Shown here: in pieces, positions 3,001 through 59,800 of the stretch
Layout of the letters: every line of letters begins with the position of its first letter
Position numbering within the stretch: the stretch's first letter is position 1
Assembly: GCA_918797485.1 (NCBI GenBank)
Contig: CAKKNE010000003.1
Coordinates: 1,364,001-1,428,000 of the forward strand
DNA from: Pelagomonas calceolata
Lineage: Eukaryota; Sar; Pelagophyceae; Pelagomonadales; Pelagomonadaceae
Direction: 5' to 3'
DNA length: 64,000 nucleotides
Position numbers and translations under genes: made by a program
Notes under the pieces: model-generated
Seen by the model: the letters and a program-made list of their open reading frames with translations, nothing else
Told to the model about the DNA's origin: nothing
Databases searched by the model: none

Positions 3001-5701
3001 GGAGGCCGTCTGGGCCGGCCTGACCGCGCCGTCCGCGCCGCCGCCGCCGCCAACGTTTCCGCCGTCGCCGCCGCCGCATCCGCCTATCTACTTCGACGTC
3101 TACACGATTGACGGCCTCGGCGGCACGCAGCTCTTCGGGCGCCTGGACCTGTCCGGCGCCGAGCGGCTCACGTTCGGCCGCGACGGGGAGCACGTCGACG
3201 TGCCGCTCGACCACGTGTCCATCTCGCGCCACCACGCGACGATCCGCTTCGAGGGCGACGTGACCTACATCGCGGACATGAAGTCGAACAACGGCACCTT
3301 CGTCGTCACGGCGCCGGGCGAGGCCGATGAGCGCGTCACGACGTCGCGGCTCCGCGAGGGGAGCGTCCTCCGCTTCGGTCTGTCGCCCTACCGCTACGTC
3401 CTCCGGCGCAGCGAGGACGGGCTGCCGCGGCCGGCCGGAGACACGTGGCCGCGGCTGGCCGAGATCGGGTCGAGCGGCGCGAAGCGCGGGGCGCCCATCC
3501 CGAAGAAGCCGGACGCGCCGCCGATCCCGAAGCGGGTGCGGCCCGAGTCGCTCGCGGCCGTGCCGCCGCCGCCGTCACACGACCGGCGCGGCGACTGGCG
3601 CGGGCGGGCGCCGCACGAGGGCGATCGCGATCGCCGCGGGCCGTCGACGAGTCCCCGCGCCAACTTCGGCGAGCGCCTGGCGGACCGCGCGGCGCGCTTC
3701 GGGCCGCCGCCCGGTCCGCCCCCGTTCGAGGCTCGCCTGGCCGACCGGGCGGCGCGCTTTAGCCCTCCGCCGAGTCCCCGCGGCAACTTTGGCGAGAAAA
3801 AAGCGGCCCGCGCGGCGCGCTTCGGGCCTCCGCCCGGCCCGTCTCCCTTCGAGGCGCGCCTGGCGGACCGCGCGGCGCGCTTTAGCCCTCCACCGAGTCC
3901 CCGAGCGGGCGACGCGGGCGGTGGCCACCGCGGGCCGCGCGGGCCGGAAGCGCCACACGGCTTCGGGCCGACGGCACTCAGCGAGGCCTTGAGCCACCGC
4001 CTCAACGCCGACGCGCTGCGTGCGCTCGCCGAGCTCGAGACGGCCGACGCCGACGCAGTCTTGCAGCGGCTCGAGAAGGCCGGCTCGACCGTGCGCAATC
4101 CGTCGACCTGGGTATGCCAGGCGGCCAAAACGCTACTCCGCGCCTACGCTGCCAGGCGGCCGCCTCACCAAAAGCCCCCGGGCCCGCCCCCTAGAAGGAG
4201 AGGCGTCTGCCAGTGGTTCGACCCCGAAAGAAAGCACGGCTTCATCAAGCCCGACGGCGGCGGCGCCGACCTCTTCGTGCACCAGATGGACCTGCGGGCC
4301 GGCACGGAGATCACGGAAGGCGACGCCGTCGAGTTTGGGACCGCGGACTATCAAGGCAGGGAGAAGGCCGTCGACGTCACCAAGGTTGAACGATACGCCG
4401 CCTGGGGGGTGGGGCCTCTTCCGGACGGCGCAAACCCCAGGAAAGTTTCCGTGGGGAATATCATATACGAGGCGAGCGAGTCAGAGATCAAGGCCTTCTT
4501 CGCAGCCGTGGGGGAAATGACCGATGTGCAATATCCACTAGATGCGACCGGCCGCCCCAAAGGCATCTGCTTCATCACGTTTGCGTCTGCCGAAGCTGCG
4601 AGCCGGGCCATCGCCACGATGAATAACGCGGAGTTTGGGGGAAGAAAGCTCCGCGTGGGTTGGCCGCAGTTCGACCGCTGCCAGTTCTCGCACGATGGGC
4701 CTCAGGGTCGCGGTCGCGGCGGCTTCGCGGGAACCGTCCTCGCGAGACACTGCGCCGATGCTCGATCTGCGGCGCCGGGCGACGGCCACCGCGAGCCGCG
4801 CGGGCCGGCACCGCCGCATGATTTCCCGCCACGCCGCTTCGGGCCGACAGCACTCAGCGAGGCCGTGCGTCGCCGCCTCCACGCCGACGCGCTGCGTGCG
4901 CTCGCCGAGCTCGAGACGGCCGACGCCGACGCCGTCGTCCAGCGCCTCACGCAGAAGGGGGCGGAGGTGCTCAACCCGTCGGCCTTTGTGTGCCAGGCGG
5001 TCAAAACGATACTCCGCGACAGGCGTGACGGCTTTGCGCGGCCGGGCGTTGTGCCGCCTCTTCCGGACGGCGCGAACCCCAGGAAAGTCCGCGTGAAGAA
5101 TATCACCTTTACTGCGAGTGAGCCAGAGATCAAAGCCTTCTTCGCAGCCGCGGGGGAAATGACCGATGTGCAATTGTGCAGAGGCCACTGCTTCATCACG
5201 TTCGCGTCTGCGGAAGCCGCGAGCCGGGCCATCGCCACGATGAATAACGCGGAGTTCCAGGGAAGAAAGCTCCGCGTGGGTTGGCCGGTATTCGACCGCT
5301 GCCGCGGAGGCTTCGCGGGAGCCGACATCGCGAGACACTGTGCCGATGGTCGATCTACGGCGGCGGGCGGGCGGGAACCACCGCGCGTCCCGCTCGACAG
5401 CCTCCAGCGCCTACCGCCGCCGAGCGCGCGGGGCAACATGGCGCCGCGGCCCGACTATCCCCGACCGGACCAGCGCCGCGGTCTGGGCCCCGACGAGTGG
5501 ATTTGTGGTGCTTGCGGCGGCGACAACTTCGCCCGGCGCCGTGAGTGTCGCCGGTGCGGCACGCCCAAGTCGTCGGGCGAGCACTGGGAAACCAACTACG
5601 GGTTTCAAGTCCCGCGGCCGACGCCGCCGCGCCGCCGCAGCAGCAGCCGGTCGCGGTCGCGGTCGCGCGAGCGGCGCGGCCGGCGCGGCCGTCGTTCCTA
5701 A
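1..5701 (+). CDS. Mosaic RNA-binding protein (Tudor/WD/FHA/CSD/RRM/RanBP2-ZnF/RS), 5' partial
   Basis: The frame is open to the left edge and has no ATG in its first ~570 codons, so the true start lies outside the window. Domains seen, numbered from base 5: Tudor/Agenet-like strand pattern (~52-95, VGDRVQARWNGEPTWYVGTL); WD40-like segment (~120-300); two copies of an unknown Cys/His domain (~540-695 and ~786-942); FHA domain (~1028-1136, HVSISRHHATI and SNNGTF); Arg/Pro repeats (~1218-1300); hnRNP Q-type acidic domain (~1320-1382); cold-shock domain (~1399-1462, KHGFIKPDGGGADLFVH); RRM (~1472-1556); second acidic domain and RRM (~1609-1762); RanBP2 zinc finger (~1829-1861, C-x2-C-x10-C-x2-C); RS-rich tail. 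The content points to a nuclear pre-mRNA-binding or splicing-linked scaffold; that role is inferred. It ends 46 bp before a convergent gene. Confidence 0.88.
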   Translation, partial: HLGRGRLFCRARAAFDGVSLDSYDRSLLAVSTQVPPRVFACRDLPLGNETEFEVGDRVQARWNGEPTWYVGTLTSVNPYAIDYDDGDHEDDVDLSLIRASRLPDPPRYPTPDAAPPTCSTVLEGRDVGALCDVACFANDGVFAAKGEDCWCGEATLKLHGKVKAVASASKHVACACSDGAVRILKVDTSIILLHSLRNPIDKVQFSSPSFGAGGEHLVAAAHVGSQVQFYVWEVQSGHCLARPRDDDKDSQDRGPIQALACHANGAVICTAAAHASQHAIRVWAAPDGFSWRAYAPNFEELHENITYNEREDEFDTTVDSKAPSHPQAEIEALLGAHGCTLDDVLRVEPTVFDAASGEWVPNADGTEELAFDDTWSAPERARFRRALAALQGEDEAEAPAAVEVEVVAEESELLDAVGLPPRSRSRSPSPAPSWSSEEDEEPPASPASSPSLPSSSPSLEPAPKVTPPSPPASPPRETTKASPLRVKQVARQRKTAPPPPAVGGVAAAPPRQRKAVPPPPPPPAVVELAAAPPLHRATPAAGDWRIIGAHVQDSDDATVRGVVTDCTHAFKEVTTTTGSVVMMRRSKLTRTTLTDEEVALCARPTSLKDYVQARIDGTIRVSHGENGREFKNCYTCADGTERRQFEVKATHVRCALCGDAHTWSLETDSLVLLNSLKQHCGQTKSNLLCVQQHLDRLDQSVGAGAEQSLESDDDDSEDVQSACAESENDELDDEWGAEQRPTRRHLVAAAEAAPAEQSSEDEDLATLRKAKPTNKPRDASMAPEPVTINAHSWRCVGAHTEDANDPTVRGIITSCPSTSTREVTTTTGTVVILKTTEIIQTTLTDDEVARAVRPTSMKDYVQARIDGTIETRCGGRDYKNCYTAADGTARCQFKVTATHVQCAICPDAPTWSLDADCVRLLKEHCGQTGGRVKHVRSLEASLASRALPSPKKAPPMSPAPIPKRKKPSPLATEKKASPLATDPRKRAKQLSGAEAAQARAEAVWAGLTAPSAPPPPPTFPPSPPPHPPIYFDVYTIDGLGGTQLFGRLDLSGAERLTFGRDGEHVDVPLDHVSISRHHATIRFEGDVTYIADMKSNNGTFVVTAPGEADERVTTSRLREGSVLRFGLSPYRYVLRRSEDGLPRPAGDTWPRLAEIGSSGAKRGAPIPKKPDAPPIPKRVRPESLAAVPPPPSHDRRGDWRGRAPHEGDRDRRGPSTSPRANFGERLADRAARFGPPPGPPPFEARLADRAARFSPPPSPRGNFGEKKAARAARFGPPPGPSPFEARLADRAARFSPPPSPRAGDAGGGHRGPRGPEAPHGFGPTALSEALSHRLNADALRALAELETADADAVLQRLEKAGSTVRNPSTWVCQAAKTLLRAYAARRPPHQKPPGPPPRRRGVCQWFDPERKHGFIKPDGGGADLFVHQMDLRAGTEITEGDAVEFGTADYQGREKAVDVTKVERYAAWGVGPLPDGANPRKVSVGNIIYEASESEIKAFFAAVGEMTDVQYPLDATGRPKGICFITFASAEAASRAIATMNNAEFGGRKLRVGWPQFDRCQFSHDGPQGRGRGGFAGTVLARHCADARSAAPGDGHREPRGPAPPHDFPPRRFGPTALSEAVRRRLHADALRALAELETADADAVVQRLTQKGAEVLNPSAFVCQAVKTILRDRRDGFARPGVVPPLPDGANPRKVRVKNITFTASEPEIKAFFAAAGEMTDVQLCRGHCFITFASAEAASRAIATMNNAEFQGRKLRVGWPVFDRCRGGFAGADIARHCADGRSTAAGGREPPRVPLDSLQRLPPPSARGNMAPRPDYPRPDQRRGLGPDEWICGACGGDNFARRRECRRCGTPKSSGEHWETNYGFQVPRPTPPRRRSSSRSRSRSRERRGRRGRRS

Positions 5702-5747
5702 CTATTGTGGTGTTGTTTATCACTTACTACACATCTTGGGGGAACGC

Positions 5748-6709
5748 CTAGGCCAGAGGCAGGTGCTCCTTGAGGTAGCCGACCGCCTCGGTCATCGCGT
5801 CCTTGATCGCCGCGGCGACCGCCGGGTCGGACGCGTCGCCGCGCGACGTCCAGCCGTGCTCCTGCTCCGGGAAGGTCTTCTGCTTCGAGCCGGCGGGCAG
5901 CTCCTTGATCACCGAGCCCTCGGGGCCGTAGAGGGCGGGGTCGTCGGACTTGGCGGGCATGATGTAGTGCGGGGCCTGGACCTGTGCGGACGTCGACAGA
6001 TGAGTGATTGTGCGCGTCCACCATCGACGCTACGTCTGCGTGATTGTACCTAGGACGCCGCTTCGATACCTTCTTGGCGAGGGCGTGGACCTCACCGCCG
6101 TGAGCGGCCACGATGTGGCAGGACGGGTGGAAGATCACGCCGACCTTGACGTCTGCGTGGGGATTTGGGCGGTGAGTGACGCGTCGCGTCGGTGGCGTAC
6201 GAGCCCACGCCGTCGCAAGTCGAAGGCTTCGCGACGGACGCCGGACACGGACCCGTCGTCATGGCCGACGTCTCAAAGCAGGCCCAGCCGCCCCAGCAGC
6301 AGCCGACGACGCCGAGGGACGTCGCGCCCTCGGCCTTGGCGTACGCCAGGAGAGCGTTCACCTTGGAATCGATGCCGTCCCATTTGACGGTCTTCACCCA
6401 CCCCATGAACTCATCCATACGCGAGCCAAGGTCGAAGTCCGGCGGCAGGCCGTCGCCGTCCGTGCCGCCCTGGAACGCCGGCTGGAGAACTTTCGGCACG
6501 TACGTGCGGTAGCCCTGCTCGGCGAACGCGTCGGCGAGCGCGCGCGTGCGGCCGCTGTCCCAGCCCCACACGTCCGGGAAAAGGATGACCGCGGCCTTGG
6601 ACTGGGCGCCGGTCTCGTAGAATTCGACGCCGTCGACGGCCTTCTTGGAGCCCTTGGTGGCTGGCTTTGCAGCCAAGTATGGCAGAGCTGAGGGAGGGCA
6701 GCACGACAT
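5748..6709 (-). CDS. Dienelactone hydrolase family protein (3 exons)
   Basis: Exons on the minus strand are 6709-6253, 6152-6070 and 5981-5748; joined they give a clean 257-residue alpha/beta hydrolase. The nucleophile elbow is GCCWGG (Cys), and the C-terminal His lies in QEHGW; the family (carboxymethylenebutenolidase-like) uses a Cys-Asp-His triad to open lactones or cleave small esters. Exon 2 (VKVGVIFHPSCH) and exon 3 (VQAPHYIMPAKSDDP) are conserved family segments, which fixes the splice choice: donor G|GTCCGT with acceptor CACGCAG (phase 1), and AAG|GTATCG with CGCACAG (phase 0). There is no signal peptide, so it is probably cytosolic. A secreted paralogue lies directly upstream on the same strand (7079-7951). 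Substrate unknown. Confidence 0.88.
5982..6069 (-). other. Intron 2 of the dienelactone hydrolase gene, introner-like core
   Basis: 88-nt intron from GTATCG to CCGCACAG. It carries GCGTCGATGGTGGACGCG, matching the introner core in the other orientation, followed by a CACTCAT-type acceptor region like other introns of this window. Confidence 0.68.
6153..6252 (-). other. Intron 1 of the dienelactone hydrolase gene, introner-like core
   Basis: 100-nt intron between G|GTCCGT and CCCCACGCAG. It contains ACGCCACCGACGCGACGC, one base from the core of the full introners at 34604-34805 and 59482-59652. Terminal repeats and target duplication are not recognisable, so it would be an old or decayed copy. 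Confidence 0.7.
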
Positions 6710-7078
6710 TTTTGTTGGCTGCGCGGTGGCGGTCTTGTTTTTGGAGCTACACGAACCTATGGTTGTGTTGCGGGCGTTGCAGCGATGTGTTGCTGCAGCG
6801 ATGTGATCGATTTGAGTGGTTGCGAGATGGCTGCCTGAGAGCTCCTAGCAAGTTCCACTAGAGTTCTGCCGGGCTGTCGCCAATCTGAAGACAAGTGCAC
6901 GCCCTCGGACCACCACAACAAGCAATCCAATGACACATCTCACCTTCTTAGACAGACTAGACCGAGACCACTGGCCTCCCGTCCGGGGACGGTTACGCTA
7001 GAATCTTAAGCCTGGCCGCCAGAGGGGATATGTTCAGGGATGGGGGCGGCGAGTGGCGAGCAATGCAGAGGAGCGTGC
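6710..7078. other. Intergenic, 369 bp, upstream of the dienelactone hydrolase gene
   Basis: Spacer between two minus-strand genes; it should hold the promoter of the 6709 start and the 3' end of the 7951 gene. A CTAGTGGAACTTGCTAGG segment near 6843-6861 (minus) loosely resembles the dispersed GCTAG palindrome. No RNA gene or ORF supported. Confidence 0.4.
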
Positions 7079-7951
7079 TCAGAGGTACTTCTCGAAGAAA
7101 TCAAAGAGGCTGCCCCACGCCGCGTTCGCGACGTCGGCGTCGTACGGGTAGAACGTCTTGTCGAAGCCGATCGCCTCGAAGCCCTCGTCTTTCGCCGTCT
7201 CGTTGGCGTAGGGCTCGGGCGACTCGTTCATGAACCCGTGGCCGATCTCTCCTTTGTACACCTTGACTGTATAGTCCTTGTTGCCCGCGTCCGCAAGCTC
7301 CTGCTCGAGCTTCGCGGCCGTGGCCGGGTCCGAGAAGCCCCCGAACAGGTCTAGTTCGCCGCTCGACCAGAGCACGGGCTTTTTCGTCGACGTCGTGGTG
7401 TCGAAGCAGCCAGCAGGCTGAGGTGCGTAGCCGTAGAACGGCGCGCCCGCGGCGATGTCGTCGCAGGCCTGGAGCGCGCACAGCGCGAGCGCGCTGCCCA
7501 TGCAGAAGCCCGTCACGCCGACCGTGGAAGCGCCGGTGTCCTTTGCCCACTTCGCGATCGTGCAGATCTCCTGGACGGCCGTCGGAAAATCAAGCTCACT
7601 CATCAAGTGATTCGCCTCCTCGGCCTCGACGCCTAACTTACCTTTGTAGAGGTCGGGAACGAGCGCTCGGTAGCCGGCCCCCGCTAGCTTCTGCGCCTTC
7701 TTGATGTGTTCTTCGTTGAGCCCCCACCACTCCTGGACCACGATCACGGCGGGCTTCTCGCTCCCCTGGTAATCCGAGTCCAGCACCGCTACCGTGCCGG
7801 TGCTCATGAGCGAACCGGCGGTGTTCGTCTGGTTGAGCCGGAGCGGAACGAGCGTCGGACACGTCGTCTTCAGCTCTTCCGCATGGAACTCGCCGAGGGC
7901 GTCGACGGCCGCCGGCAGCGCCGCGAGACAGAGGAGCAGTTTAGCGTTCAT
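7079..7951 (-). CDS. Secreted dienelactone hydrolase paralogue
   Basis: 290 residues, single exon. The open frame extends to 8128, but the upstream part is translated minisatellite; the ATG at 7951 is followed by a good signal peptide (MNAKLLLCLAALPAAVDALG), so it is chosen as start. Family features: VQEWWGLN near residue 85, nucleophile elbow GFCMGS with Cys, GELDLFGG in the acid region, and GHGFMN with the catalytic His. This is closer to the canonical bacterial/fungal dienelactone hydrolase pattern than the neighbour at 5748-6709, so the pair is an old rather than recent tandem duplication. Likely secretory pathway or extracellular; substrate unknown. Confidence 0.87.
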   Translation of the reverse strand: MNAKLLLCLAALPAAVDALGEFHAEELKTTCPTLVPLRLNQTNTAGSLMSTGTVAVLDSDYQGSEKPAVIVVQEWWGLNEEHIKKAQKLAGAGYRALVPDLYKGKLGVEAEEANHLMSELDFPTAVQEICTIAKWAKDTGASTVGVTGFCMGSALALCALQACDDIAAGAPFYGYAPQPAGCFDTTTSTKKPVLWSSGELDLFGGFSDPATAAKLEQELADAGNKDYTVKVYKGEIGHGFMNESPEPYANETAKDEGFEAIGFDKTFYPYDADVANAAWGSLFDFFEKYL

Positions 7952-32903: not shown

Positions 32904-35429
32904 CTACAGGATGTGCTCATCATCCTTCCCGTACAAGAATCCAACACGCCCGATGTTTTTCTTCGACCGCCGCTTCGGCCAACAAGCGAAGATGAGTGAA
33001 ATCACCAGCCACCCCGCGAAGATCTGCTGCATCTGTAAGGCGCCGTAACTTTCACCGATGTCCTCACCGATCAACTGGAACACGCGGACTTGTCCAGTCA
33101 ACGCGACTATCAGCAATAGTAGACATATCGACGACGAGCACCGGCAGCAACACCGCAGGACGATCGTCAGTAATGCCAGAGCGGCAGAAACTCCCATGAA
33201 CGCAACATACGTCGCCTCGGTGGCAGCGTCCGCGGCCCGCGCAACCCTTCGTAGCCGCGCCCGACGCGCGTCGGCGCGGTCTGAGAGCTCGGTCGACGGC
33301 CGCCCAGGACACGCTCGGTTATCTAACTGAGGCGGCTCCTTCGTCGACACAGCCGGCGCCTCCACAAATAGTCGCTCCCAGGCCGGTCTGTTCCAAGCTC
33401 TCTCCGCCTCCGCACATTTCGCCTCGAAGGTCTGGACGGCGCGCCCGTGGCCTGCGCGCGCGACCGGTGAGCACCGCCACGCCATCGAGCGTCGATCTCA
33501 TCATGGGCGGGTCGCGGAGATGGCGTCGAGCAGAAGGCACCGTAGGGACGCCGCGCCCCGCAGTCATTCGATTCGGAGCTCCCGCGCGATAAGCGTAAAC
33601 GCGCCCACTCGCGGATCGCAGCTTTAGTCTCATCAGTCAACGCCGCGATATGTGATCTCGTGAACGACGCGTCGTCGCCCTCCGCGGCCTCAATAACAGC
33701 GGCCTCAGCCTCAACAGCCGCGCCGTCGGCGGCGCGCTCCGCCGCCGCAATACACGGCTCCGGCGGGTCGCTGGCGGGAAATCCGACGCACGTGCGGTCG
33801 AATGCCGTCTTCGCCTTGAGCGTGGCATTGGCTATGAGGACCGCCTTGCCCATCTTCGAGGCCGTCATGCGGAATTGATCCACAGTTTCTTGAAGCTCGA
33901 CGCGATGGCGGTCCCGAAATCCCGATAAGACTGGCGCGCCTTCCTCCCGACTCAACCAGTCCATCGACGCTTCGAACTCACAGCCACGGACCCCATGCTG
34001 GTCCACTTTCGCCAAACGTTCGTCGTCGGGGAGCCCCTGCAAACACGATATCAGCGCCCGCTTCGCCGCGTAGAGTTCCGACGACGACAGGTCCGCCTCC
34101 GCGCGGCCGTTCTTGCCGCGCACGCTCCCAGCCACCTCGGCCACGGCCTGCTTCGCGACGGCCTTTGCGCGTTCAATGGCGGCGGCCTTCACCGCAGCAT
34201 TGCCATCTTTCTCGAACTCCGCCTGGGCCGCGATGACACCTGTGCGCACATCAACCAGTGAGTCGGGTGCTAGAGCGGCGAGAGACCCACACCGCCACGC
34301 CATTGAGCTGGCGTCGCGTCGATGGCGTGAAGGTCATGACTGAGCCGTGGACGGACACACGCCGTGATATTTGATTTCTGCACTGAACAACGCCTTCCTT
34401 CTCCGCCTCTATCAACATCGCGTCGATGGCAGACTTCTCCGCGGGCAGCATCAATCCGCCAACTATTTCCCCCACGGCTACTTGGGCCTTCTCGATCGCG
34501 ATTTCCTCCCTCGCTTCGAGCGCGACGTGTGCGGAAAACGCTTCGCTAGCTCTGGCAATCTCCGCGGCGTCGGGTTCCGCACCCGCCTTCGCGGCGACCT
34601 GGCCTGTGTGGAAATCAAATTTTACGGCGCGTTCGTGCTGAATCGTCGCGTCGACCTGCACGCCATCGACGCGACGCCTGCTCGATGGCGTGGCGCTGCG
34701 GGTCCCTCGGCGCTCGACTGAGCCCGCGCGGCCGCGTCATCACCGAGAAATGACTTCGTGAAGAAAAATCGGGTGCACCCGACACACTGCTTGATTTCCA
34801 CACAGGACCTGGCCCTTCCAGACCTCCAAGAGCGCTTTCGCTTTGTCCTTGGCGTTTTTGTCGACCGCGGCCTCCGCTTTTGTGATCATGTCGGCGATGG
34901 CCTGGGCGTTGTTCTTCTGCAGTCGCTCGGCCTCGTCCGCGAGCGTTCTCAGCAGAGACGGTGCGGTGGCGGCGGCCCGGCGCAATACGGCCGCCGCCGC
35001 CTCGTACTGGGCCTCCCGCAGCTCCGAGGCGGCCATGGCCTCGTCCGGCGCGAGGCCCTTCTCTGACAGGAAGGCCGCCACCGCGCCGCGGAAGGCTGCG
35101 GCGGCGTCCTCGCCGGACTCGACAAGCGGCTCTTTCTCAGAGGCGGGCTCGGAAGCCTCCTTCGGGGCCGCGGCGCCGCTGTCGCCCGTCGCCGCGGACG
35201 GCACGACCTTATTTTGGTCTTTTGCTTCCAAAGCGCCCAGCGCTGCGGCGGAGGCGTCCGCCTGCTGCGCCCAGTCCTTCGGGTTATTGTGGCGCGGGTT
35301 CATCCGCGGCGGCGGCGCGGCCGCGGACTGGCCCTGCACCGCCGCGGCCTCGCCGTCCATCGAGACCGCGTCGACGTCGACGGCCGTGGCCGCGGCGGCT
35401 GCCAGCACGAGCACCAATGGCCTCATCAT
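32904..35429 (-). CDS. Secretory-pathway membrane protein, unknown, four exons interrupted by introners
   Basis: Exons: 35429-34809, 34598-34394, 34239 to about 33601, and 33451-32904; joined ~670 residues. The start MMRPLVLVLAAAAATAVDV gives a signal peptide. The body is Ala/Glu/Lys-rich helix with QVAAKAGAEPDAAEIARA and VIAAQAEFEKDG continuing smoothly across the first two junctions, which is how they were fixed. The last exon has two or three hydrophobic spans (ATYVAFMGVSAALALLTIVL; SSSICLLLLIVALTGQV; QIFAGWLVISLIFA) and a short basic tail. No family recognised. The donor of the third intron is tentative (GC|GTTTAC at 33600 keeps phase). Confidence 0.68.
33452..33600 (-). other. Intron 3 of the membrane protein gene, introner-like
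   Basis: Acceptor CGCGCGCAG is clear from the frame of the last exon; the donor is tentative. Inside, GACGCCATCTCC and CGACGCTCGATGGCGTGGCGG match the paired core of the full introners, in the same orientation as intron 2. No target duplication recognised. Confidence 0.6.
34240..34385 (-). mobile_element. Introner (intron 2), opposite orientation, diverged
   Basis: 146-bp element whose ends read CTGTGCGCACATCAACC and TTTGATTTCTGCACTG, degraded versions of the CTGTGTGGAAATCAA terminal repeat. The central CGCCACGCCATTGAGC ... CGTCGATGGCGTGAAGG pair is inverted relative to 34604-34805. It forms a 154-nt intron, 34393-34240. Flanking 8-mers (GATGACAC, AACAACGC) no longer match well, so it is older. 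The reading frame requires donor GAAG|GCGTTG, that is GC instead of GT. Confidence 0.8.
34596..34813. repeat. 8-bp target site duplication GACCTGGC flanking introner
   Basis: Identical copies at 34596-34603 and 34806-34813 bound the element, showing insertion by a cut-and-paste type transposase rather than by reverse splicing. Confidence 0.9.
34604..34805 (-). mobile_element. Introner (intron 1) with perfect 8-bp target duplication
   Basis: 202-bp non-autonomous DNA element. Terminal inverted repeats are CTGTGTGGAAATCAA at the left and its complement TTGATTTCCACACAG at the right. GACCTGGC is duplicated exactly at 34596-34603 and 34806-34813. The host gene is on the minus strand; removal of 210 nt restores LLEVWKGQ-VAAKAGAE. 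This works either as GC-AG from the first base of the upstream copy or as CAG|GT...CAG|GT using the target copies themselves; the mRNA is the same. Confidence 0.92.
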
Positions 35430-42572: not shown

Positions 42573-42625
42573 AGGAAGCTACTGATGTTGTTGAGTCGCA
42601 GTGATGGTGTGCTTACGGCATGGAC

Positions 42626-42639
42626 ACGCCATCGCCGCG
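42626..42639. repeat. Introner-core motif in convergent gap
   Basis: ACGCCATCGCCGCG, the same 14-mer (or complement) found in the convergent gaps at 49113-49126, 52481-52494 and 52512-52525, and similar to the introner core. Confidence 0.55.
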
Positions 42640-44406: not shown

Positions 44407-45850
44407 ATGCCGCGAAGGCTGCTCATCAATGCTGCATGCTTAACCTTGCCCTTGCTGAGTGATGCGCTGTCTCTCACAGGACTGCTGAAACGAAGTAGGA
44501 ATCGTGCACGCGGCCGACGTGTGCTCGAGGACTTTTCTACGCCCTGGCAACTGGACATTCGCAAGGGTTCGACCGGCGTGCTTTATGCCGAGGAAGCTGG
44601 CGCGCAAAAACCAGTCAATTGGGCGTTCCTGAGCTGCGGTCGTGTGGCTCACGACTATGCGAATGCGCTCCGATGCGTCGACGGCGCCAAGCCATACGTC
44701 GTGGCAACGCGGTCTGCAGACGACCTGCCGCGAGCGGAGGCGTTCCGGGACAGGCATGGTTTCGAAAAGGCGGTCGGGACGTACTCCGAAGCACTCTTGG
44801 ACCCGAACGTGGATGTGGTCTACCTCTCATCGCTGCATTCGGCGCGCGTTGAGCATGTCACTGCCATCCTTGAATGTGGCAAGCACTGCGTCGTCGAGAA
44901 GCCGCTTGCGTGCAACGGCGCTGACGGCAGGCGGCTCGTCGAGCTGGCACGGTCGAAGAACGTATTCATGATGGAAGGAATGTGGACCCGCTGCTTTCCG
45001 GCCGTCGAACACGCGCGACGGTTAATAAATGACGGCACGATTGGCGCCGTCACCGCCGTGATCTCCGATTTTGGGTTCGATGCAGCCGATTCAGGCGTAT
45101 ACCCCACAGATATGAACGATCCGTCAACTGGAGACCCAATCTACTTTTCAAAACTTGGCGGTTCTGCATTGCTCTGGGCGGGGCCGTATCCCATTGCGGC
45201 TGGTCTACTTCCCTTTGGCGCAACGGAACCGCGGAGCGTCGCTGCTGCTGGCGTCGTCGATCCAACGGGTGTGGACCTATCGTGCGGCCTCACCTTATCG
45301 TACGCCGCGCCGGGCGGCGTCCCGGTGCCCCAGAAGGCTGGCACTTGCCCGCCGCGCGGCGCGACCGTTAGCTTGTACACAGCGATCGACGCCGAATCGG
45401 CGGAGACAACGACCTACATTGGGCAGAAGGGTCGCATCACGGTACTGCCTCCCGCGCATTGTCCGACAAAACTACGCGTCGAGCTCAAAGGCAAGGGCAG
45501 GGGAAACGCGAGGGTGACAGAATTTGAATTTCCCTTTCCAGAGCCGAAACGGCCCTTCGCGCCCGTCCCCGGCGGCGGCGAAGACGATGTTTTCTTTTAC
45601 CCGAACTCGCACGGGTTTGCGTACGAGGCCGCGGCCGTGACGCGATGCCTCAATGCCGGCCTGACGGTGTGCCCCTGTGTGAAAATCAAGTTTCGCGGCG
45701 CTTCTCGCATACGGCTGAATCTTGCACTTGACTCACTGTTTGATTTCCACACAGGAGTGCCCACAGTACACGCTAGACGAAACGCTCCGAGCACTCTCGC
45801 TCGTCGACGCAGCGCGGAAAGCCATGTCCGAGCCAAATTCCGAGTCATGA
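44407..45850 (+). CDS. Gfo/Idh/MocA-family oxidoreductase (dihydrodiol dehydrogenase-like), 2 exons
   Basis: Exons 44407-45666 and 45755-45850, 451 residues. After a hydrophobic leader (MPRRLLINAACLTLPLLSDA) suggesting signal or organelle targeting, the NAD(P)-binding fold starts at VNWAFLSCGRVAHDYA (~70), with YLSSLHSARVEHV and the catalytic-region VEKPL (~163). The C-terminal half has DFGFDAADSG and GGSALLWAGPYPI, as in dimeric dihydrodiol dehydrogenase-type members. Exon 2 supplies ECPQYTLDETLRALSLVDAA, the conserved final helix, which proves the intron. Substrate unknown, probably a sugar or diol. Stop is 20 bp from the converging GMC gene. Confidence 0.86.
45675..45754 (+). mobile_element. 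Short introner (80 bp) in the Gfo/Idh gene
   Basis: Ends are CTGTGTGAAAATCAAG and TTTGATTTCCACACAG. Flanking copies are GTGTGCCC (45667-45674) and GAGTGCCC (45755-45762), 7 of 8 identical. The intron is 45667-45754: GT comes from the upstream target copy, AG from the element. The left ~40 bp match the left end of 59482-59652 (ACGGCGCG ... GCTGAATC), so it is an internally deleted relative. Confidence 0.9.
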
Positions 45851-49112: not shown

Positions 49113-49126
49113 CGCGGCGATGGCGT
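49113..49126. repeat. Introner-core motif in convergent gap
   Basis: CGCGGCGATGGCGT between the BDP1-like and MYND genes; reverse complement of the copy at 42626-42639. Confidence 0.55.
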
Positions 49127-49182
49127 GGGCCCTCTAGGCCGCCTCGTCAGCGACAAGCCTAAACTTGGAGACGCGGCGCTTA

Positions 49183-56886: not shown

Positions 56887-59800
56887 TTAAACATCCGTCA
56901 GGACAGGCAACCCGTCCGGCAGATACGTGTGCGTCGTCGCGTGCGACGCGTCATCAAACAACTCCTCGGCGACGGACTCCGTCGATATCCGCAGCTTCGC
57001 CTGCTTCGCCGGCCGCTCGAGCGTCTTGATCGATTCCTCCAGTAATGAAAGAGCCGACGTGATGTGCGACCGGTCCTCGACGTTCGCGTCGCGCCACTGC
57101 TTCGCGGCCTCCTTGGCCCTGACCTGCTGGCGCTCCGCGTCCCAGGCTTCATTATCTTCGTGGGCCCACACCACAAACACGTCGACGGCGCCGCGCCACG
57201 AGTCGACCTGCCCCGTGGCCCGTTCCCCGAGCTTCAGCCACGCCCGCCTCGGATAGCCGTCGCGGTACTGCGCGATCCTGACCACGCTCTTGCCCACCAC
57301 ATGTTTTTCACCCTTCTTGTCCACGGCCAGGATGGCAATTTCAAGCGTGGCCTTCGGCGAGATCTCCCGCTCTCGTATTTGTTTGCGCCCCTTGGCCTTC
57401 CACACGACCTCGGCAGCTTCGTCCGGCCTAGAGCCTCCCGAGGCACTCACCGTATCCGTGGTCAGGAAGAGGCGGTGGGCGACCCTAACCTCAGCTAGTA
57501 ACGTAAAGCCGCCCTCCTTGGCGAGGCTCGGGGGCGCTCGCACGCGCGCCGCTCGTACGACCGTGATATGTAGTGCATTCGGCGGCGCCTGCGACGCTAA
57601 AGCTTTGCGCCGTAACATGGCCTCCTTGCCCGTCGGCGGCTCGCCGCTCACACCTAGTCTCTTTGCCCACTCGGCCTCTTCATCTAAACCCATCTCGCGC
57701 GGATTCAGGCGCGGATCAAAAAACCACTTGAGTCGTAAAAGGACGCGGCCGTCGCCGATCCCTGGCTTTGCCGCGAGGCGATTCGCTGCGACGACCTTGT
57801 TGCCAGTCTTCTGGAGCTTCCCGCCTCCCGCGCCGCCGCCGCCGTCGCCGCCAGTCCGGGCGCCGCTGCCGTCGTCGCCGGTTGCGGCGCCGCCAGCCGA
57901 CGCATTTACCGATGCCGGTTCTTCGGAGAAAGCGACTTTTGAACCACGGTCGAAGGAGCTTTTCGGAGAGGCCGCGACGCGCGCGGCCTTCAATCGCTTG
58001 AGCATTGGAGAAACGGCCTTGACCTTGGCTTTAGCGATGTCCCGCGCCAGATTGCCGGGGCTCTTGGCCTGTACAGAATCAGCGGGGTGCGAGGCGGAAA
58101 ACGGCGCGTGGTTCAGCTGCTTGGCCCGGCGCTTCGTCACCACTAAACCGGACGTGAGGACGTGGAGGGCCGGGCGCTTCTTCTTCCGGCGCACGGGCGT
58201 CTTCTTCTTCGTCGATGGCGCCTTGCCGGGCGACCCCTCCTCCTGAGCAGCGGCCTTGAACGCCGCGACGACCTCCAGCTGGTCGTCGACGTGTCCCCAG
58301 CCCCTCTTCGCCCCGGCGGCCGGCGACTTCAGGGCCACCCACGTTTCAGTGTAGTCGAGGCCGTCCTTCGCCACCCCCAACAAGTCCTTGAGCAAAATGG
58401 TATGAGACCCTATCAATTGATCCTGCTCGTCGTTCGCCGCGCACGTGTCGTCGTAGACTTGTACTTTCAACGCTGCCTTCGGCGACGAGTCGAGCTGCAA
58501 CGAGGCTTCTTCATGCCACGAAGGTGTCAACGATCTTTTAATGGTCTCGGACTGCCAGACGTCGCCGGTGAGCACAAAAGTTTTTTGCCGCTTCGCTCCC
58601 GGTTCCGTGGGAGGCAACGACCGTTCTTCCCCCGCACTCAACCGACAGTAGGCGTCTCTAGATGCACCTTCATAGGCCTTCAGATCTTCGGGGTCCGCCA
58701 TGATTTCCGCCCGTACTACTACTACTTCTAGTCGGTTCGGCACGCCTCGCAGCGAAGCCACTTGAAACACGCTCTGCTTGCCCAGTTTGAAGTCGGCTTC
58801 CGTCGGCTTACTTAGTATTCTCTTAGACGGCTTCTTAGTAGGTGCTTCCACAACAACAGGTCGTGGAGCCTCGAAGTATCCATCGGCGGGCCGCGACGGG
58901 TCGAATTTCCAATCTAGGAACACCTCGACCAGGCCCCGCTCACAAATATTCAAATCGCCGGCGAATTTGCTCATCATGGACGCTTTATCTTTCGCCTGCA
59001 GCTCGAACCATCTACGATGCGGCCCCCGTCGTAGTTCCCCGATTCTTATTTGCACCTTGCCAATGAAATCATGCGACTTGACCGCGCCCAGCAGGAACCG
59101 ATCTTCGTCCTGCACAAGTAATTCTAGCATATCAGAGGCCTTGTGGCAGTTGAATACAAAACTTTGATCCCAGACCGGGTTGACCGACGAGCGAACGACT
59201 TTCGTCGATTGCGTTTGATCATTTAGTGTCAAACGACAGACGGGGTCCGACTTCGGCGTGGACAGCAACGCCCAGTCCATGGCCTTGACCTCCTTGGCGC
59301 GGATTATGCGGACGTGCAGGACGTTGGGCGGGTTTTGCTCTGGTGCGTCTGACCATGCTTCTATAAGAGTATCCTCCTCGATGCCGAACACGAGCGCCGG
59401 GTTCTGGCGCCAGCTCACGCAGAGCTGCACCCTCAGATCCTCGTTCTGCAAAACGCGCTCGCCGAAGGTGATGGCCTCCGCCTGTGTGGAAATCAAATTT
59501 TACGGCGCGTTCGTGCTGAATCGTCGCATCTACCTGCACGCCATCGACGCGACGCCTGCTCGATGGCGTGGCGATGCCGGTTCCTCACCGCTCGACGGAA
59601 CCAGCGCGGCCACGTCATCGTGCACCCGACGCGCTGGTTGGTTTCCACGCAGGCCTCCACGGAGTGCTCCAGCACCAAGGAACCGAGCAACGACGACCCG
59701 AGCACACCCTTGTCGCGCACCTCCACCAATAACTCGGCGTGGTCGTCCTCGACGTGCAGACGGACCTCCTCGTTCCACCTCCCCTCGTTATCCCAGGTTT

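Follow-up and report, generated by a model that had tools for sequence, protein, structure and literature searches.

A stretch of 64,000 nucleotides from Pelagomonas calceolata (contig 3, 1364001-1428000; the window) contains a gene interrupted by a 202-bp insertion with matching ends, and this locus raises the question of whether a DNA transposon has become a spliceosomal intron there and, if so, where its splice sites come from. A preliminary description of the window had reported complementary inverted ends and an 8-bp duplication on both sides of the insertion. Sequence inspection bears this out: the terminal inverted repeats (TIRs) are perfect over 15 bp, and the target site duplication (TSD) is perfect over 8 bp (Table 1). 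The description had also found the frame to be smooth after excision, giving no strand. This is true on the minus strand, where the host gene lies and where excision of 34604-34813 links ...EVWKGQ to VAAKAGAEP... in one frame. With the element and 8 bp taken out, the predicted minus-strand junction is ...GAGGTCTGGAAGG joined to GCCAGGTCGCCGCG.... The boundary of this copy is ambiguous, as GC-AG (34604-34813) and GT-AG (34599-34808) registers yield an identical mRNA. Because none of the three open pieces of the host gene matched a Pfam family at E 0.1, it is the reading frame that backs this join.

Table 1. Positions in the window of the 202-bp element, its parts and the other family members (gene orientation refers to the host gene of each element).
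Feature	Position	Strand	Length	Details
Introner element, paired ends	34604..34805	- (= host gene's)	202 bp	
Left TIR CTGTGTGGAAATCAA	34604..34618		15 bp	minus/gene strand reads TTGATTTCCACACAG; inferred to bear the predicted 3' splice site CACACAG
Right TIR	34791..34805		15 bp	exact reverse complement of CTGTGTGGAAATCAA
TSD copy GACCTGGC	34596..34603		8 bp	exon copy, gene orientation
TSD copy GACCTGGC	34806..34813		8 bp	gene orientation = GCCAGGTC; leading GC = predicted donor
Alternative predicted donor GT	34808-34807			equivalent register
Predicted intron, GC-AG register	34604..34813	-	210 nt	element + one TSD copy
Older, diverged family member, degenerate fourth pair of ends	34240..34385	-	146 bp	same gene as the 34604-34805 copy
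Predicted intron of the older member	34240-34393	-		donor GC in TSD1 GCGTTGTT; TSD2 GTGTCATC
Short family member, paired ends	45675..45754	+	80 bp	TSD GTGTGCCC / GAGTGCCC; predicted GT donor
Family member, paired ends	59482..59652	-	171 bp	TSD, gene orientation, GTGGAGGC / GCGGAGGC; C2 domain encoded nearby in gene; predicted GT donor

The GC content of the window is 0.60-0.69 (4-kb steps), and the 15-mer of the TIR occurs in it eight times with up to three mismatches, versus a mean of 0.61 after shuffling. These eight ends form three pairs and a degenerate fourth. The fourth pair delimits the older member in the host gene: its TSD1 and TSD2 are alike at 4/8 bases, the acceptor CACAG precedes TSD2, and its excision keeps the frame (...EAEKE/GVIAAQ..., the slash marking the junction here and below). 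Since this member obeys the same donor and acceptor rule and keeps the frame, the host gene appears to have received insertions twice, at different times. Isolated CGATGGCGTG(G/T) motifs at window positions 33477-33487, 42624-42634 and 49118-49128 resemble the inner hairpin of the introner, have no recognisable ends, and are perhaps relics of older introns.

Copies were counted in a genome assembly of 8 contigs totalling 32,445,274 bases; the published RCC100 genome comprises 32.4 Mb in six nuclear contigs plus plastid and mitochondrion, with 63.6% GC (PMC9481584). The exact 15-mer occurs 790 times in forward and 772 times in reverse orientation (1,562 in all), and the reversed-pattern control gave 0. 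With up to two mismatches the counts were 1,653 and 1,597 (3,250), against 14 and 8 (22) in the control. As each element has two ends, the family comprises about 1,600 elements; the absence of further genomic copies had been named beforehand as counting against the proposed reading, and they are present in this number. A DNA search with the whole element, in which the best 40 of 868 candidates were scored, returned 43 places, 41 of them approximately full length and two fragments; among these best-scoring candidates the window copy matched at 100% and the rest of the 41 at 89-94%.

For the tallies below, elements were defined as pairs of ends with at most three mismatches each and four in total, 45-450 bp apart, and genes were ignored. 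They were taken from 327,165 fetched bases, overlaps included, in which the reversed control yielded no TIR pairs. The 98 pairs obtained were reduced to 74 elements by removing 24 that overlapping loci had contributed twice, as one and the same place or as an identical duplicate; 0 were removed at locus edges. Of the elements, 8 (the window copy among them) and 41 came, neighbours included, from stretches retrieved chiefly for their likeness to the window copy, 23 from contig 1 stretches retrieved by an exact end, and 2 more from the window. Two copies, C3:74849-75053 (L104) and C6:3834414-3834618 (L102), are identical over the core that was compared and lie at near-equal distances from the contig end. 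They are probably a single insertion inside duplicated chromosome ends, which have been described in this species (PMC9481584).

The 74 elements fall into 46 full-length (>=195 bp) and 28 shorter copies (56-194 bp), which have their ends in common. Similarity among copies extends to both boundaries. The full-length copies, mostly fetched by similarity to the window copy, have a median divergence of 3.2% from their own 203-bp majority sequence (range 1.0-8.4%, with the window copy furthest away) and of 5.9% from one another. The majority sequence shares the perfect 15-bp TIR of the window copy. One arm of the inner hairpin, CGCCATCGACGC or CTCGATGGCG, is matched exactly in 45/46 full-length and 18/28 short copies; judged by eye, some short copies have an interior of a second type. 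The 8-bp TSDs are perfect in 47 elements and have one mismatch in 16, two in 6 and four or more in 5. TSDs with at most 2/8 mismatches are thus present in 69/74 elements, and the 5/74 without a recognisable TSD were excluded from most tallies. At locus L098 the element 1467-1669 has flanks GTTCTGGC and ACCAGAAC that are reverse complements at 7/8 bases instead of direct repeats, possibly through a rearrangement at the element, or by chance.

Donor sites were assigned on the assumption that the intron consists of one TSD copy plus the element, so that the upstream copy opens with the two donor bases. All 69 elements with a TSD have GT or GC (GY) at the start of the TSD in one orientation or the other, as compared with 32.5% of flanking 8-mers. 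GY is found in the forward orientation only in 23 of them, in the reverse only in 24, in both in 22 and in neither in 0, where about 8 would be expected under independent end preferences (Fisher p 6e-6). The five TSD-less elements have GY at one end too. To relate GY to the genes, the coding strand was called by a codon-usage model that did not consult the donor and whose table was derived from no more than 38 long frames, all taken from parts of this genome. Of the 47 informative copies, in which GY stands at a single end, 36 have it in gene sense by codon usage and 3 against it, with 8 undecided, so that 36/39 decided cases are in gene sense. A joined-frame version of the test, which works from the frame that is open across the join, gave gene-sense GY in 46/47; both versions share one codon table and are not independent. 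The codon-usage exceptions were L090 (margin 0.18), L096_1495 (0.27) and L101 (0.92, with a stop near the join on the opposite strand), and the joined-frame exception was L096_1495 (margin 0.04).

The predicted sense donors of the 69 copies are 37 GT, 31 GC and 1 GA in the joined-frame version, and 35 GT, 31 GC and one each of CT, GA and CC in the first version, which puts GC at about 45% of predicted donors. Most of these GC donors cannot be re-read as GT-AG, because 20 of the 21 GC-donor copies with a perfect TSD allow GC-AG only; the window copy alone has an equivalent GT-AG register. The two TSD copies differ in 22 elements, at position 3 in seven of them, and in L011, L100, L106_2719 and L113 this position is A in the intron copy and G in the exon copy. 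These position-3 differences may reflect drift to a better donor, although they are few and the change may have run either way.

At the other side of the predicted intron, CAG terminates the outward reading of 72/74 right and 71/74 left ends, in elements that were selected for near-matching ends. Because a CAG acceptor sits at both ends, orientation of the interior should be neutral, and the counts agree: relative to the GY end, the interior has the same orientation in 16 and the opposite in 18 full-length copies, and the short copies gave 7 and 6, numbers that are unsure where the interior differs. Within the end, TTGAT is the putative branch point, a reading that leans on the general branch-point consensus.

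Excision also matters for the encoded proteins. Retention of the insert in the message would cause a frameshift or introduce a stop in 54/59 copies with a strand margin >0.15. Ten joined products, picked by eye from 69 as resembling known proteins and hence favouring recognisable genes, were scanned against Pfam, and in 8/10 a domain spans the junction. Kinase, gamma-glutamyltransferase (GGT), class II aldolase, FkbM and APH-type phosphotransferase domains are among them. A sulfatase domain spans its junction at 25 bits, exactly its cut-off, DnaJ spans by three residues and XRN by five, and the remaining 2/10 products scanned, those of the methyltransferase-11 and C2 genes, had no domain across the junction. 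The kinase junction falls within HRDLKTHN/VLL (motif HRDLKxxN), where the alignment is gapless; the aldolase junction AIE/AGTIKMNID, from a copy with a GC donor, is likewise gapless, and so is the GGT junction, with a one-residue gap three residues further on. The class II aldolase gene (L108) seems to hold a second intron about 50-190 nt downstream of its element (1510-1712), between ...TDTQWSFW and DGIREYE..., where read-through contains the repeated peptide STFAAA; this intron is apparently unrelated to the introner.

Together, the GY rule, the gene-sense bias and the restored domains suggest that the ends carry a 3' splice site in both orientations and that host DNA supplies the 5' site. 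A new copy lands flanked by the 8-bp target duplication, which is itself observed. The inverted 15-mer, reading outward as TTGATTTCCACACAG and ending in CAG, would place a complete 3' splice module on both ends, made up of the branch-point-like TTGAT, pyrimidines and CACACAG, and the module used would be that at the end lying downstream in the transcript. The GT or GC that opens the upstream TSD copy would, judging from the sequence pattern, serve as the 5' splice site. The spliceosome would then excise the element with one TSD copy and leave the mRNA as it was before insertion. Insertions without a gene-sense GY would be lost by selection, which would explain why no GY-less insertion was seen, and the elements would be mobilised by a transposase acting in trans.

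On the evidence of these sequences, the feature is very probably one copy of a non-autonomous TIR DNA transposon, a MITE-like introner that makes spliceosomal introns in genes. The preliminary description had called it an intron born by DNA transposition, and that claim is now supported by TIRs with TSDs, by interiors in both orientations, by the donor at the gene-sense end and by the restored domains. An alternative is that the copies are a plain family of unspliced MITEs lying in genes and that GY is the target preference of a transposase. Among the 56 copies oriented to gene sense, 45 have a purine at the seventh TSD position, which hints at a weakly palindromic target GY....RC, and some transposase preference is likely. 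Such a preference would be blind to the gene strand, and this does not fit the 36/39 or 46/47 copies with gene-sense GY; moreover, retention would break 54/59 frames, and the published intron-length peak matches (PMC9481584). We therefore consider an unspliced family improbable. To tie GY to the gene strand, there must be either selection for splicing, which is far more likely, or insertion that follows transcription. An unlikely proposal is that the act of insertion, and not just the selection afterwards, depends on the transcribed strand, so that the transposase or its choice of target may follow transcription; its basis is that none of the 74 elements, collected blind to genes, lacks GY at both ends, together with the same gene-sense counts (36/39 or 46/47). 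If it were true, and if intergenic copies are as rare as suggested, the element would land practically only as a working intron.

Spread by an RNA route, e.g. by the reverse splicing that has been put forward for introners of fungi (PMC9860276), would agree with the resemblance of the examined copies to spliceable introns. Reverse splicing, however, would produce sense interiors only, and the interior is opposite in 18/34 full-length informative copies, while the perfect 8-bp duplications (47/74) and the TIRs mark DNA transposition. RNA-mediated spread was rejected on account of the two interior orientations and is highly improbable. The probability that the inverted repeat is due to chance or to an assembly artefact is negligible: this reading is refuted by about 1,600 copies, by 0 TIR pairs in the reversed control, and by flanks and TSDs that differ from copy to copy. 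For the preferred reading, that of a transposon spliced out as an intron, the mechanism is by analogy that of the Aureococcus introners, which, as Huff, Zilberman and Roy reportedly described in Nature in 2016, carry one splice site, co-opt the other from the duplicated target and are removed exactly.

The genome paper reports 0.45 introns per gene in P. calceolata with a length peak near 210 bp, which it likens to the introner elements of A. anophagefferens (PMC9481584). An element of 202 or 203 bp plus 8 bp gives 210 or 211, equal to this peak. The introner likeness of the species was thus already known from intron length; the passages on these introns, from what size, contigs and GC indicate to be the same genome, deal with length and contain neither TIRs and TSDs nor a family sequence or figures on donors (PMC9481584). 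The anatomy of the family, the roughly 45% GC donors, the orientation symmetry and the older copy in the same gene are new. Literature searches on introners in P. calceolata or pelagophytes matched the genome paper alone (PMC9481584), and those combining Pelagomonas, transposon and intron returned that paper and an otherwise unrelated phage paper.

Compared by description, the introners of Aureococcus anophagefferens, likewise a pelagophyte, are also short TIR elements with constant-length direct repeats (PMC7789003), and their length class of about 210 bp is like that of the Pelagomonas family (PMC9481584). They are described as having canonical splicing motifs (PMC7789003), in contrast to the approximately 45% of predicted GC donors found here; GC donors do reach up to 50% in some introner families (PMC9860276). 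The introners of Symbiodinium divide the labour between element and duplication in the same way but differ in a 4-bp TSD and in the host (PMC9860276). Those of an Aureococcus sp. MAG, from the genus of the best-known pelagophyte introners, share the 8-bp TSD, but they bring both splice sites with them and lengthen the mRNA by 12 nt, whereas the Pelagomonas family would add nothing (PMC9860276). Pelagomonas is not named in the main text of that study (PMC9860276).

With these copies, an oceanic picoeukaryote offers an example of intron birth that is recent, abundant and base-exact. If nearly all of the about 1,600 copies are introns, they would make up about a fifth of the approximately 7,500 predicted introns (0.45 x 16,667). 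The donor comes from the 8 bp of host sequence that happened to be duplicated, which also makes the family a large natural experiment on the tolerance of the spliceosome; in the 69 copies the predicted donor is GT in 37, GC in 31 and GA in 1.

As to carriage, introners are said to have moved horizontally (Gozashti and others, in 2025). In viral contigs the exact 15-mer was found once each in 43 stretches, which were scanned for exact ends. Across these stretches (345,046 bases, from partly incomplete contigs) two loose partner ends without a TSD were found and taken as chance. Nothing in the 43 stretches, none of which has a second end with a TSD, points to viral carriage, and this candidate was rejected.

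Genome searches with Pfam profiles for hAT, MULE, KDZ, IS1595/Merlin and P-like RNase H did not find a transposase with the ends of the family. The MULE and IS1595/Merlin profiles had no genome match; KDZ and P-like RNase H had none either, and control genomes were equally silent. The hAT search yielded one ORF with a weak match to the dimerisation domain (22.3 bits, cut-off 21.4), and the 9.9 kb around it contain no family end with fewer than four mismatches. The TIRs thus gave no link of the family to non-autonomous hAT elements, as they are not shared with this sole hAT-like ORF in the 9.9 kb covered. The hAT-like gene (L083) lies on contig 4 at 4495000-4504900, with ORFs at 4881-7043 and 7086-7751 on the minus strand. 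The 67 bp preceding its hAT-like ORF align to the introner interior, and from this similarity the transposase-like gene itself seems to hold an old introner.
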